DNA of 64,000 bases, from NCBI RefSeq assembly GCF_002844235.1, contig NZ_PGTS01000003.1, forward strand, positions 62,001 through 126,000, written 5' to 3'. Positions 16,544 to 21,071 of this stretch are shown here, in pieces (within the stretch, counting starts at the first letter, position 1; each line of letters starts with the position of its first letter). The position numbers and the translations under genes were made by a program. Below the pieces are notes generated by a model. The model searched no databases. It saw nothing but the letters and a program-made list of their open reading frames with translations, and had not been told where the DNA came from. This stretch comes from Thalassospira povalilytica. Its GTDB lineage: Bacteria > Pseudomonadota > Alphaproteobacteria > Rhodospirillales > Thalassospiraceae.

Positions 16544-17149
16544 ATGGCATTTGAACTCCCAGCACTTCCGTATGCATATGACGCACTTGCGCCGGTCATG
16601 TCGGCTGAAACTCTTGAGTTTCACCATGACAAACACCACAACGCCTATGTTGTGAACGGCAACAAGCTGCTCGAAGGTTCGGGCCTTGAAGGCAAGTCGC
16701 TTGAAGAAATCGTTGTTGCATCTTACGGCGACGCATCCAAAGCCGGCCTGTTCAACAACGCTGCCCAGCACTGGAACCACATCGAGTTCTGGCAGATGAT
16801 GAAAGGCAACGGCGGCGGTGCCATTCCGGGTGAACTGGAAAAGAAAATCGTCGAAGATTTCGGCTCTGTTGATGCCTTCAAAGAAGCCTTCATTCAGGCT
16901 GGCGTTACCCAGTTCGGTTCGGGCTGGTGCTGGCTGGCACTCGACAAATCCGGCAAACTGGTTGTGACCAAGACCCCGAACGCGGAAAACCCGCTTGTTC
17001 ACGGTCAGACCCCGCTGCTCGGTTGTGATGTTTGGGAACACTCCTACTACATCGATTACCGCAACGCGCGCCCGGACTATGTCAAAGCCTTCCTCGACAG
17101 CCTGGTTAACTGGGAATATGTCGCAGAGCGCTTCTCCAAAGCCGGCTAA
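16544..17149 (+). CDS. sodB: Superoxide dismutase, Fe type
   Basis: A 201-residue Fe/Mn superoxide dismutase that converts superoxide to oxygen and hydrogen peroxide. Metal ligands are His27 (EFHHDKHH), His79 (QHWNHIEFW), Asp162 and His166 (CDVWEHSYY). Gln75 in AAQHWNH and the overall wording match the iron form. No signal peptide is present, so it is cytoplasmic. GAGGA lies upstream of the ATG. A strong terminator follows, and the next gene is of quite different base composition. Confidence 0.96.
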   Translation: MAFELPALPYAYDALAPVMSAETLEFHHDKHHNAYVVNGNKLLEGSGLEGKSLEEIVVASYGDASKAGLFNNAAQHWNHIEFWQMMKGNGGGAIPGELEKKIVEDFGSVDAFKEAFIQAGVTQFGSGWCWLALDKSGKLVVTKTPNAENPLVHGQTPLLGCDVWEHSYYIDYRNARPDYVKAFLDSLVNWEYVAERFSKAG

Positions 17150-17177
17150 TCAGCCCGGCTTTGAGACGAGATTAAAG

Positions 17178-17207
17178 AAAGCGGCTCCTTTTTGGGGCCG
17201 CTTTTTT
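17178..17207 (+). terminator. Terminator after sodB
   Basis: AAAGCGGCTCC (17178-17188) pairs with GGGGCCGCTTT (17194-17204) around a TTTTT loop, then T-rich. It marks the left limit of the A+T-rich segment. Confidence 0.88.
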
Positions 17208-17236
17208 CTTTATATCCAAGACAATTGCAACAGTAA

Positions 17237-19369
17237 TTATTGGGTAACCGACAAATCGATTCCTAATTTTTCTTTGTATACACCAATTCTCTTTTTAGCC
17301 CGATCCACAACGTCTTCGTAGAAAAGAACCTCTTGATAAAGTTCTCCTAGATTCTGTGAACTCTCGGGGTCTTCTAATGGACTTGTGCGAAAATAGCCCT
17401 TGCCAGTTGGAAATCTAGTCCAGCCCGCTATGCGTAAAGGGTTCAACGTGTCACCGATAATATACCCATAGAATTTTTTGATTCTGCCTTTAGATTTGGC
17501 AGCGAGTATATGAGCATATTCAGACAAGTCACCAATGTGATCATCCATGCTAACGCCCGGCGCCTTGAATTCAATAATTATCGCTGAGCCCTCTTCACTG
17601 AAAAGAGCAATATCTGGTCGCAACTTTGAATTATCATCCGTTCTTTTTGCGAGGATTTTTTCAAATGCAACATCAATTTCAGGATCGAATAACGCCGATC
17701 CATCCTCCCACTCTATCTGTGCGAGTGGTTTATCGGATGAAATATACTCGTAATAGTGGTACTCTTCATTTAGCAGCCAAATGTCGTGATCAGCTACCTC
17801 TTTGCTATCCTTCTTCATAGGAAAGAAAACGCTATGAATGATTTTTTCGTCCTTACGCCGCCCCTCAACATCAGGTGCTTGAAAATTCAGTTGCTTTCGG
17901 TGGGCTAAGCTCAGGACCTCGACGATTGCAGCCCTTCTCACGACCAGCTGCGACAGGTTGGCCATATCAAAGTTTTTCAACGACGCAGTATACATCCAAG
18001 AAAGGTCATTGATTTTCTGTCTGAAATCCTCCGAATCTGGTTCCAAATTGAGAATTTCATCCTTTAAATCAACTATGTTCTCTGTCTCAACAACAACCCT
18101 TTCCTGATACTTCTTCAATACTCGATCAACGACAGAATGCGCTGTATCGCCATATCTCACCCGCGTACCTGTATCAGCAAGCATCGCCTCAGAAATCCCA
18201 AAGTGCCTCGCAGCACTATCCATCACTTTTTCTTTATTCCAGTCGGGGGGAGTTACGAATTCTGCAATAACGTCGTCAATTACATCGTAAATATCTTGAT
18301 ACGAAATGGGCGCACCTGACACCAAGTCACCACCTTCCAGTTCTTCTGGAAGATCATCAAAATCATCCCGTTGTTCATTGACGCGGTTATCTAGAAAATC
18401 ACCCTCAATCAAAACGATATGATGGAATTTTCCAACCGGATTATTTTGTTCAGTTTTGGTTCTTAGGTATCTCTTAGTGATGTCTTTAACGGGCGAGGAC
18501 TTCGCGCAAAAAGCAATGGCGTTCTTTGGAAGGTCATACGCATTTTTATCAAGTTTGTAATGAGACACAGTGAACTGCTGTTCAGTTTGAGTTTTCTCTC
18601 CAGTAAGAGGGTCACGCTCCTTAACCATAACCGAACGAACCTCAGACACCGAGGGTAGGTCTGATTTTTTCAACGAGGCCTTAGCTGGGTTGCCGTCCTT
18701 CCCCACTTTTGTTTCAAAGGTGATTTTGAAATCACCGATTTGCTCTTCAAGACCAATCAACCTTTGAAGAAAAGATACGAGAACAGTCTTTTTGAGGGAA
18801 CTTGCTGAGAAGATTTCAGACAAATCTTGCGCTAAAAACTTTCTATTCCGCGCAGTTTCCTTCAAATCTGATAGTGTGATGACGGTTCCGCTTCTTGTGG
18901 CATTCGATGGTGAAGCGGAGAACATATCAGGACTAATCTGTTTTTGATCTTCGTGAAACTCTAAGGTTCTCTCTCGAAAAGACCCATCTTCTTGAAAAAT
19001 TGAAGAAACATTTACGCGGGAGAAGTGGTGGAAGTATTGAATCCTACCCGCTCCCTTACATTTTCCAATCCCTATTACGTCCAAATCATCCTTATATGAC
19101 GTATCTTTAGTCAAAAATGCGAGAGCTTGATCCTCTCCGATACCGCAACCATTGTCGCTACATGTGATTTGGCAGTCGTGCGCTTCTGCGCCCAACAAAT
19201 CTATATCCCAAAACTCAACCTTAAAGTGCACCTCCAAAGGTTCTGCACCAGGCTCTTCGTGCTTACGAATTAAGTACGAATCAATAGAGTTCGACAGAAG
19301 TTCATCAAAGACAACATAAGGGTTTGAACTAAGCTTAGTGTTCTTGAGGCTTCCACGAACATCTAGCAT
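17237..19369 (-). CDS. Solitary GHKL (Hsp90/MORC-like) ATPase with C-terminal PD-(D/E)XK-like nuclease module; candidate defence gene
   Basis: A 710-residue protein. Residues 15-190 are a GHKL ATPase: N-box Glu23, Asn27, Asp30 (FDELLSNSID), G1 box SDNGCGI at 71-77, G2 box GIGKCKGAG at 100-108 and a later SGTVITLSD. A helical middle follows (about 380-490). Near 520-600 comes FFPMKKDS, then DIWLLNEEYHYYEYISSDK, then RPDIALFS and IIIEFKAP, giving Asp586, Glu600 and Lys602 in the D-(X)n-E-X-K order of PD-(D/E)XK nucleases. The gene is strikingly A+T-rich beside its neighbours and uses codons rare around it, which suggests transfer. GHKL ATPases with nuclease partners occur in MORC-like and restriction-type defence proteins. 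The nuclease assignment and the defence role are inference; there is no nearby partner gene. Confidence 0.75.
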   Translation of the reverse strand: MLDVRGSLKNTKLSSNPYVVFDELLSNSIDSYLIRKHEEPGAEPLEVHFKVEFWDIDLLGAEAHDCQITCSDNGCGIGEDQALAFLTKDTSYKDDLDVIGIGKCKGAGRIQYFHHFSRVNVSSIFQEDGSFRERTLEFHEDQKQISPDMFSASPSNATRSGTVITLSDLKETARNRKFLAQDLSEIFSASSLKKTVLVSFLQRLIGLEEQIGDFKITFETKVGKDGNPAKASLKKSDLPSVSEVRSVMVKERDPLTGEKTQTEQQFTVSHYKLDKNAYDLPKNAIAFCAKSSPVKDITKRYLRTKTEQNNPVGKFHHIVLIEGDFLDNRVNEQRDDFDDLPEELEGGDLVSGAPISYQDIYDVIDDVIAEFVTPPDWNKEKVMDSAARHFGISEAMLADTGTRVRYGDTAHSVVDRVLKKYQERVVVETENIVDLKDEILNLEPDSEDFRQKINDLSWMYTASLKNFDMANLSQLVVRRAAIVEVLSLAHRKQLNFQAPDVEGRRKDEKIIHSVFFPMKKDSKEVADHDIWLLNEEYHYYEYISSDKPLAQIEWEDGSALFDPEIDVAFEKILAKRTDDNSKLRPDIALFSEEGSAIIIEFKAPGVSMDDHIGDLSEYAHILAAKSKGRIKKFYGYIIGDTLNPLRIAGWTRFPTGKGYFRTSPLEDPESSQNLGELYQEVLFYEDVVDRAKKRIGVYKEKLGIDLSVTQ

Positions 19370-19514
19370 GCAAATATCTCTCAGGCTAACAAAACAACCA
19401 GAAATAATCTAAATCAACTATTTCACTATTCGACCGCTTAGCACAATGCAAATTAATCAATATCACCTTCTATCATGCAATTTGAAAAATTAGACTGCTA
19501 TCGTTGCCGGAAAG
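19370..19514. other. A+T-rich upstream region of the GHKL-nuclease gene
   Basis: About 145 bp of markedly A+T-rich sequence between the start of the GHKL gene and the terminator of the lysine-type operon. It should hold the gene's promoter. I found no attachment site, inverted-repeat end or direct repeat matching the other edge near 17208-17236. Confidence 0.5.
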
Positions 19515-19547
19515 ACAAAAACCCCGCCGGCGAACCGGCGGGGTTTG
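19515..19547 (-). terminator. Terminator of the oxidase-aminotransferase-dehydrogenase operon
   Basis: ACCCCGCCGG (19521-19530), loop CGAA, CCGGCGGGGT (19535-19544). Read leftwards it ends in a T-run (AAAAA at 19517-19521 on the plus strand), 25 bases past the ALDH stop. Confidence 0.88.
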
Positions 19548-19571
19548 GATCGAACCTGATCGGGCGAGTGA

Positions 19572-21071
19572 TCAGATGTCGAATTTGATGCCCTGAGCCA
19601 GCGGCAGCTCGCGGGAATAGTTGATGGTGTTGGTTGCACGGCGCATATAGGCCTTCCAGGCGTCCGAACCGGATTCACGACCACCACCGGTTTCTTTCTC
19701 GCCGCCGAACGCACCGCCGATTTCTGCACCGGACGGGCCGATATTGACATTGGCAATACCGCAATCGGAACCGACAGCCGACAGGAACAGTTCGGTTTCG
19801 CGCACATCGGTCGAGAAGATGCACGAAGACAACCCTTGCGGCACGCCGTTCTGAAGCGCGATGGCTTCTTCAAGGGTTTCATAGGTCATGACATACAGGA
19901 TCGGCGCGAAGGTTTCGTTGCGCACGGTATCGGTCTGACCCGGCATTTCAACGACCGACGGGGTGACATAGAAGGCGTTCGGATATTCGGATTCCAGCAC
20001 ACGTTCGCCACCATGAACAACACCGCCATCCTTTTTGGCATTGGCAAGGGCGGTCTGCATGTTGTTGAAGCTGTCTTCATCGATTAGCGGACCAACAAGG
20101 GTGCCATCGGCAAGCGGATCACCGATTTTGACCGACTTGTAAGCGGCAATGATTTTCGGAAGCAACTGATCCTTGACGTCTTTATGGACGATCAGGCGAC
20201 GAAGCGAGGTACAACGCTGACCACAGGTGCCAACAGCCGAGAACACAACCGCACGAACAGTCATATCAAGATCGGCCGACGGGGTCACGATCATGGCGTT
20301 GTTGCCGCCAAGTTCCAGAATGGTACGCCCGAACCGTTCGGCAACACGCGGGGCAACTTCGCGGCCCATGCGGGTCGAACCGGTTGCCGAGACCAGAGCC
20401 ACATCATGGCTGTCGGTCATGGCTTCGCCGATCTTGCGATCGCCGATCACGACCTGATGCAGGCCTTCGGGTGCATCACCGAATTTCGCCAGCGCCTTTT
20501 CAAAGATTTTCTGGCAGGCAAGGGCGGTCAACGGGGTCTTTTCCGACGGTTTCCAGATCACGGAGTTACCGCACACAAGCGCAAGCGCGGTGTTCCAGGA
20601 CCAGACAGCAACCGGGAAGTTGAACGCGGAAATCACGCCAACAACGCCCAGCGGATGCCAGGTTTCCATCATTTTGTGGCCCGGGCGTTCGGATGCGATG
20701 GTCAGACCGTAAAGCTGACGCGACAGACCGACTGCGAAGTCGCAGATATCGATCATTTCCTGAACTTCACCAAGACCTTCCTGATAGATTTTGCCGCATT
20801 CAAGCGACACCAGACGACCCAGCGGTTCTTTTGCTGCGCGCAATTCTTCGCCCAGAAGACGGGCCAGTTCACCGCGACGCGGACCCGGAACCTGACGCCA
20901 TTCACCGAATGCCTTTTTGGCATTGCCGATGATGTCGGTCATTGCCGCCGGATCGGTTTCGGCAACAGATGCGATTTCCGAACCGTCAACCGGGGTCTGG
21001 ACCTTAAGCGTGCCATTGGCGATCTCGGCGTCAGACAGACCAAGCTCGGTCAGGATGGATTTGAAACTCAC
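19572..21071 (-). CDS. amaB: ALDH7-family aldehyde dehydrogenase, probable alpha-aminoadipic semialdehyde / piperideine-6-carboxylate dehydrogenase
   Basis: A 499-residue NAD-dependent aldehyde dehydrogenase with catalytic Cys287 (GTCGQRCT) and general base Glu253 (LELGGNNAM). The wording (ISAFNFPVAVWSWN, CGKIYQEGLGEVQEMID, GGAFGGEKETGGGRESGSD) is that of ALDH7/AmaB. These oxidise alpha-aminoadipic semialdehyde to 2-aminoadipate in lysine breakdown. A good ribosome site (AAGAAGGGAG) precedes the start. It is the last gene of a leftward three-gene operon with an aminotransferase (58 bp upstream) and a FAD oxidase, and a terminator follows. The aldehyde specificity is inferred from subfamily and context. 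Confidence 0.88.
   Translation of the reverse strand: MSFKSILTELGLSDAEIANGTLKVQTPVDGSEIASVAETDPAAMTDIIGNAKKAFGEWRQVPGPRRGELARLLGEELRAAKEPLGRLVSLECGKIYQEGLGEVQEMIDICDFAVGLSRQLYGLTIASERPGHKMMETWHPLGVVGVISAFNFPVAVWSWNTALALVCGNSVIWKPSEKTPLTALACQKIFEKALAKFGDAPEGLHQVVIGDRKIGEAMTDSHDVALVSATGSTRMGREVAPRVAERFGRTILELGGNNAMIVTPSADLDMTVRAVVFSAVGTCGQRCTSLRRLIVHKDVKDQLLPKIIAAYKSVKIGDPLADGTLVGPLIDEDSFNNMQTALANAKKDGGVVHGGERVLESEYPNAFYVTPSVVEMPGQTDTVRNETFAPILYVMTYETLEEAIALQNGVPQGLSSCIFSTDVRETELFLSAVGSDCGIANVNIGPSGAEIGGAFGGEKETGGGRESGSDAWKAYMRRATNTINYSRELPLAQGIKFDI

Follow-up and report, generated by a model that had tools for sequence, protein, structure and literature searches.

A solitary GHKL ATPase-nuclease gene in Thalassospira povalilytica as a candidate single-gene anti-phage system related to paraMORC3 and GHKL-type Shedu

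One gene in the 64,000-nucleotide stretch of Thalassospira povalilytica DNA analysed here (the window) encodes a protein whose N-terminus resembles a GHKL ATPase and whose C-terminus resembles a PD-(D/E)XK nuclease. A first-pass annotation took it for a horizontally acquired, single-gene defence effector. The locus raises the question of whether such a gene is foreign to its surroundings, whether its C-terminal domain is a restriction-endonuclease core and, if so, whether it belongs to a kind of defence system that is already known.

The gene and its insertion site

The gene, the segment that carries it and the flanking core genes are located in the window as follows.

17237..19369, minus strand: GHKL ATPase-PD-(D/E)XK nuclease gene, an intact single open reading frame of 710 aa with an ATG start
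17208..19517, no strand: inserted segment of 2.3 kb, A+T-rich, in the sodB-ALDH intergenic slot; absent from the slot of congeners, with a G+C step at both edges
17175..17207, plus strand: intrinsic terminator 3' of sodB, the left edge of the insert
19519..19546, minus strand: intrinsic terminator 3' of the aldehyde dehydrogenase gene, the right edge of the insert
16544..17149, plus strand: superoxide dismutase gene, core flank, assigned from sequence
19572..21071, minus strand: aldehyde dehydrogenase gene, core flank, assigned from sequence

The gene fits exactly between the terminators of the convergent core genes sodB and ALDH and is most likely monocistronic. Its G+C content of 0.427 (GC3 0.418) lies below that of nearby genes (0.54-0.58, GC3 0.59-0.63), in keeping with its initial description as A+T-rich, and the A+T-rich insert that holds it begins and ends with a sharp step in G+C. 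The gene is missing in all 28 other genomes of the genus (present in 1 of 29), and the slot is empty in 10 of these 28 congeners, where the flanks lie 12-47 bp apart. Of the genomes sampled across the phylum, 4 of 398 carry a full-length copy, as does 1 of 289 sampled across the class; both counts include this genome. The gene is horizontally acquired, as had been proposed: its G+C is 43% against 55%, none of the 28 congeners carries it, and ten of them retain an empty slot.

Elsewhere in the genus the same slot holds other genes. In one congener a gene for a SLATT protein precedes that for an RT-UG17 reverse transcriptase (L062:958-2959; PADLOC DRT models, E 3.5e-40 and 1.6e-139), and another carries a gene with matches to putAbiC (Pfam, 1e-19) and AbiP (PADLOC, 1e-10) (L058:1565-2506). 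Further congeners hold a PDC-S42 candidate with a ParE/RHH pair or ParDE-like pairs, and one holds a TetR regulator with an anthrone-oxygenase-like protein. The sodB-ALDH site is therefore a swap-in slot in which defence and toxin-antitoxin genes abound, and it could be mined for more systems. Across the region (window 17150-19571; L055-L072) the cargo is varied and often A+T-rich, no integrase was seen, and exchange probably proceeds by recombination in the core flanks. Two further occupants lack PADLOC matches. A 545-aa protein with a G+C of about 0.35 (L061:860-2497) combines a concanavalin/LamG-like domain with what may be a PD-(D/E)XK-like C-terminus (VVCYPD...PVEFK), and an A+T-rich gene for a 482-aa P-loop ATPase (GYKGSGKSS; L055:1634-3082) is a candidate single-gene defence ATPase.

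Architecture of the 710-residue protein

The predicted domains and motifs map to the window as listed here.

18245..19369, minus strand: GHKL ATP-binding domain plus S5-fold transducer domain, residues 1-375, Hsp90/MORC/TopoVI-B-like (AlphaFold model, Foldseek, VIA-align)
19289..19303, minus strand: GHKL N-box, E23...N27, predicted catalytic base and Mg2+ ligand (conservation)
19139..19156, minus strand: GHKL G1 box, D72-NGCGI77 (motif, conservation)
19046..19072, minus strand: GHKL G2 box or ATP lid, G100-IGKCKGAG108 (motif, conservation)
17894..18235, minus strand: helical stalk joining the ATPase module to the nuclease, residues 379-492 (AlphaFold model)
17252..17872, minus strand: predicted PD-(D/E)XK restriction-endonuclease-fold domain, residues 500-706 (weak HSDR_N match, homologue domains, model, VIA-align)
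17846..17848, minus strand: E508, first acidic residue of the E-D-ExK signature, invariant in both alignments
17729..17785, minus strand: D529 to K547, family hallmark between E508 and D586; W531, S545 and D546 invariant at ~20% identity
17564..17620, minus strand: predicted nuclease active site, R584-P-D586...E600-x-K602; D586, E600 and K602 invariant in both alignments

An AlphaFold model of the full protein, built from an 18-sequence input (mean pLDDT 73.9), presents residues 1-375 as a GHKL plus transducer module. This region resembles SMCHD1, TopoVI-B, MORC2/3 and Hsp90/TRAP1 (Foldseek, E down to 2.5e-10), and its VIA-align match (Z 15-18) spans the GHKL and transducer/middle domain of Hsp90, MORC and TopoVI-B. 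Four GHKL ATP motifs are conserved, namely E23/N27, DNGCG, GxGxxxG and G161-T162. The E23/N27, DNGCGI and GIGKCKGAG motifs lie at the residues first reported and are not chance resemblances, since E23, N27, D72, G74, G76, G100, G106 and G108 are invariant across 20 aligned sequences; T162 is invariant in the same alignment. All aligned sequences of this branch share Cys104 (codon at window 19058-19060) in the ATP lid, a residue that the wider group of relatives described below lacks. The stalk that follows is modelled as five helices (residues 379-390, 394-400, 410-440, 447-466 and 472-492).

In the model the C-terminal domain takes the form of a PD-(D/E)XK core. The structural scores behind this assignment are individually weak, and it is carried by their consistency, the motif and a profile link to SduA. 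The putative active site, D586...E600-x-K602, is found where the first-pass annotation placed it, and P585, D586, E600 and K602 are invariant among the 20 sequences. E508, also invariant there, is a fourth conserved element of the nuclease signature that was overlooked at first, and it completes E-D-ExK (E508, D586, E600 and K602). The stretch DIWLLNEEYHYYEYISSDK (residues 529-547), previously singled out as distinctive, is correctly located; it is not peculiar to this protein, however, but belongs to the nuclease module and is common to the wider family. We regard it as a hallmark of that module because W531, S545 and D546 are invariant across both groups of relatives.

The fold itself is modelled with modest confidence. 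Residues 490-540 are of low confidence in the model, and the C-terminal part folded separately reaches a mean pLDDT of 69.7, with its first residues, 1-49, poorly modelled. The predicted order is helix-strand-strand-helix-strand; D586 lies on one strand and E600/K602 on the next. VIA-align ranks the B. cereus Shedu nuclease 8ti9 first (Z 5.5, rmsd 3.8, 112 residues), a weak match whose score is too low to exclude a common arrangement, and the next are many PD-(D/E)XK enzymes, including BspD6I, EndoMS, McrC, SgrAI, Can2, MspJI and Cap4, with some unrelated chains interspersed. Foldseek returned nothing for this domain at E <= 0.001 (best E 0.037), and the restriction-endonuclease fold is therefore assigned from VIA-align, motif and profile evidence. 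A different fold of the C-terminus would have spoken against the original reading, but enzymes with the restriction-endonuclease fold dominate the top structural matches, with weak scores.

Sequence catalogues detect the two domains faintly. Pfam gives sub-threshold matches to HATPase_c (residues 18-82, E 0.0046) and HSDR_N (577-619, E 0.01), and this pair appears again in most of the close relatives scanned, some of which also match HSDR_N_2 and VRR_NUC. PADLOC yields zero matches of any kind to the 710-aa protein, even at E 1, and has no model for the wider group of GHKL nucleases either. NCBIfam offers no usable family, its HSP90 equivalog matching at 18.7 bits against a cut-off of 455. A sequence search of the PDB returned chance matches only for this branch and weak, GHKL-only matches for the superfamily.

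Relatives and the closest known systems

Full-length relatives with 49-62% identity are found in Rhizobium, Mesorhizobium, Bradyrhizobium, Novosphingobium, Kiloniella, Pseudomonas and Duganella, and plasmids of Sinorhizobium, Sphingomonas, Rhizobium and Tabrizicola carry others. The relatives are spread over alpha-, beta- and gammaproteobacteria, with the beta- and gammaproteobacterial sequences nested among alphaproteobacterial ones in the tree. Beyond this branch lies a wider group of 'ATP-binding proteins' of about 650-700 aa that are ~20% identical to it; profiles of the two groups align over their whole length (probability 100%, E 5.7e-53). In 17 sequences from both groups, down to ~20% identity, N27, D72, G74, G76, G106, G108, E508, H512, W531, S545, D546, D586, E600, K602 and P604 are invariant, and E23 is conserved at >=90% across the superfamily. 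A distant member of the wider group (676 aa; L002:211-2238) is present in another genome of the genus (G020). No match to the protein was found in the phage genomes searched. Viral contigs hold four close relatives of it and none for three queries from the distant group.

Most homologue copies are solitary, and their neighbours do not recur save in one closely related pair. The solitary arrangement described for the window gene holds at nearly all homologue loci, which have no partner. Defence genes lie within several kb of some homologues, including Gabija GajA/GajB (L020), type I restriction-modification (R-M) genes (L022) and PDC-S37 (L012); SIR2-HerA-like and DarTG-like genes (L075) and a UvrD-like helicase with a restriction endonuclease (L076) are also found near homologues. 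At one locus (L015:3518-12103) the homologue is the last of seven genes in an overlapping operon, after a C5 methyltransferase (Dcm), Vsr, an SNF2 helicase, EcoRII-N, a MORC/MzaB-like GHKL protein and HNH. These loci bear out the suggested link to defence regions, and many other homologue loci have no recognised defence neighbour.

Tiamat, a single-gene system reported to contain an Hsp90-like ATPase, had been offered as a comparison; the closest known kind is instead paraMORC3 or GHKL-type Shedu, with paraMORC3 compared by its described features. paraMORC3 proteins (PMC2292703) combine an N-terminal GHKL and S5 module with a C-terminal restriction-endonuclease-fold nuclease bearing E-D-ExK, are often encoded by standalone genes and have a sporadic, laterally spread distribution. 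The 710-aa protein shares the GHKL motifs, the S5-fold domain, the restriction-endonuclease-fold C-terminus (with weak scores) and E-D-ExK. It differs in the signatures of its own branch, TKDTSYKDDL and GIGxCKGxGR, and in its ~20% identity to the commonest relatives. Prokaryotic MORC and MzaB proteins share the GHKL-S5 ATPase module, and an MzaB-like gene shares the L015 operon with a homologue. The MORC-specific S5 motif GhXhhpXXRhl, however, has no match in any family member, as in paraMORC3 and unlike MORC, and the 710-aa protein has a nuclease domain of its own.

The GHKL Shedu protein VcSduA (type I-D), encoded in V. cholerae VSP-II WASA, is likewise a single-gene system with a GHKL N-terminus and a PD-(D/E)xK C-terminus; it works alone in E. 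coli, and E27A and K557A each abolish its phage defence (PMC12137116, Nat Microbiol 2025). The spacing of its E27 and K557 is 530 residues, whereas E23 and K602 are 579 apart in the 710-aa protein, which also has no SduA_C/DUF4263 match. In the wider group this spacing is mostly 525-539, which fits VcSduA, and in L107 and L108 it is 477-478; from this spacing we infer that VcSduA is a member of the wider group. L107 and L108, which are GHKL-SduA_C proteins, were considered as the nearest relatives and rejected, their match being confined to the C-terminus and the full-length match being with the wider group.

The relation to canonical Shedu SduA (B. cereus 8ti8/8ti9; 8ps4/8ps5) is more distant. 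SduA lacks a GHKL ATPase, and although 8ti9 is the best solved match to the C-terminal fold (weak, Z 5.5), the direct sequence match to this branch is not significant. SduA_C/DUF4263 (PF14082) is absent from the 710-aa protein and six close relatives at E <= 1. Profile comparison with SduA gives a probability of 4% for this branch alone, with one of 60 column shuffles scoring higher, 93% for the wider group and 94% for the combined superfamily C-terminal profile (score 57.8 against <=24.7 in 60 column shuffles). Because the SduA_C signature is lacking, we file the gene as paraMORC3-like and describe it as probably working like VcSduA, rather than as a member of Shedu.

The gene thus represents an uncatalogued branch of a known kind, paraMORC3 or GHKL-type Shedu, and not a new category. 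The branch is unnamed in Pfam, NCBIfam and PADLOC, and no catalogue model tried would detect it. A barely explored class of GHKL-nuclease defence proteins, for which we found one experimental validation (VcSduA, 2025), gains a well-conserved branch in alpha-, beta- and gammaproteobacteria.

Proposed function and its alternatives

The combination of domains, distribution and likeness to VcSduA makes it probable that the gene encodes a one-gene anti-phage restriction nuclease of the paraMORC3/GHKL-Shedu type, which would block phage by cutting DNA. In such a mechanism, a dimer would close its N-terminal GHKL modules around DNA on binding ATP, in the manner of MORC, TopoVI-B and MutL. This closure would be relayed by the stalk helices to the C-terminal PD-(D/E)XK domains, which would then cut invading DNA, and ATP hydrolysis would reset the clamp. 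ATP-driven dimerisation may in this way gate the nuclease, and VcSduA provides a published precedent for the mechanism. Given the conserved residues, such ATP gating of a restriction nuclease lends itself to direct testing with a few point mutants. Phage DNA ends serve as the cue for EcSduA (PMC12904381), and a similar cue, or DNA topology, is plausible here. This branch carries the invariant Cys104 and the TKDTSYKDDL signature, neither of which occurs in the other GHKL nucleases seen, and this leaves room for a phage cue different from that of VcSduA. Such a cue could be redox state, a metal or DNA topology; that the branch is a class apart among ATP-gated defence nucleases, triggered and regulated in its own way, we consider rather unlikely.

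Abortive infection is a frequent mode of action of nuclease effectors in defence islands, and the occupants of the sodB-ALDH slot in other genomes include an Abi-like protein. Once activated, the protein could cleave host DNA and so kill the cell instead of restricting the phage directly, a reading to which we give a minor but real chance; VcSduA argues against it, in that it protects at all tested MOIs and the host survives, which its authors read as direct restriction (PMC12137116). A different possibility is that the protein is an accessory subunit of R-M systems, an ATP-gated nuclease whose cutting depends on the partnership or control of a DNA methyltransferase system encoded elsewhere in the genome. 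The L015 homologue overlaps the end of its Dcm/Vsr/SNF2/EcoRII-N/MORC-like/HNH operon, a distant relative adjoins a type I R-M operon (L073), and MORC and paraMORC genes have been placed in R-M operons like that of L015 (Iyer 2008, PMC2292703). Nearly all other loci, including the window, lack a partner, however, and VcSduA is sufficient alone in E. coli (PMC12137116), so that an accessory role appears quite improbable.

A vertically inherited housekeeping gene for DNA repair (MutL-like) or a chaperone (Hsp90-like) would account for the GHKL and transducer fold, which is common to TopoVI-B, MORC and Hsp90, and for the weak NCBIfam HSP90 match. It is hardly credible for a gene that has a foreign base composition, is carried on plasmids in other genera, scores 18.7 bits against 455 and is limited to one genome out of 29 in the genus and to about 1% of those sampled in the phylum, and on this sporadic distribution a housekeeping role was rejected. 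The restriction nuclease thus stands as the preferred reading.

Two loci of more distant relatives show further arrangements. On a V. fluvialis plasmid (L073:6610-10004), an SduA gene overlaps the start of a wider-group GHKL-nuclease gene, placing two related nucleases next to each other, and the pair sits downstream of type I R-M genes. In Pseudoalteromonas (L074:10091-11728), an intermediate relative is followed directly by a reverse-transcriptase-like open reading frame (FYRYIDDYSCY).
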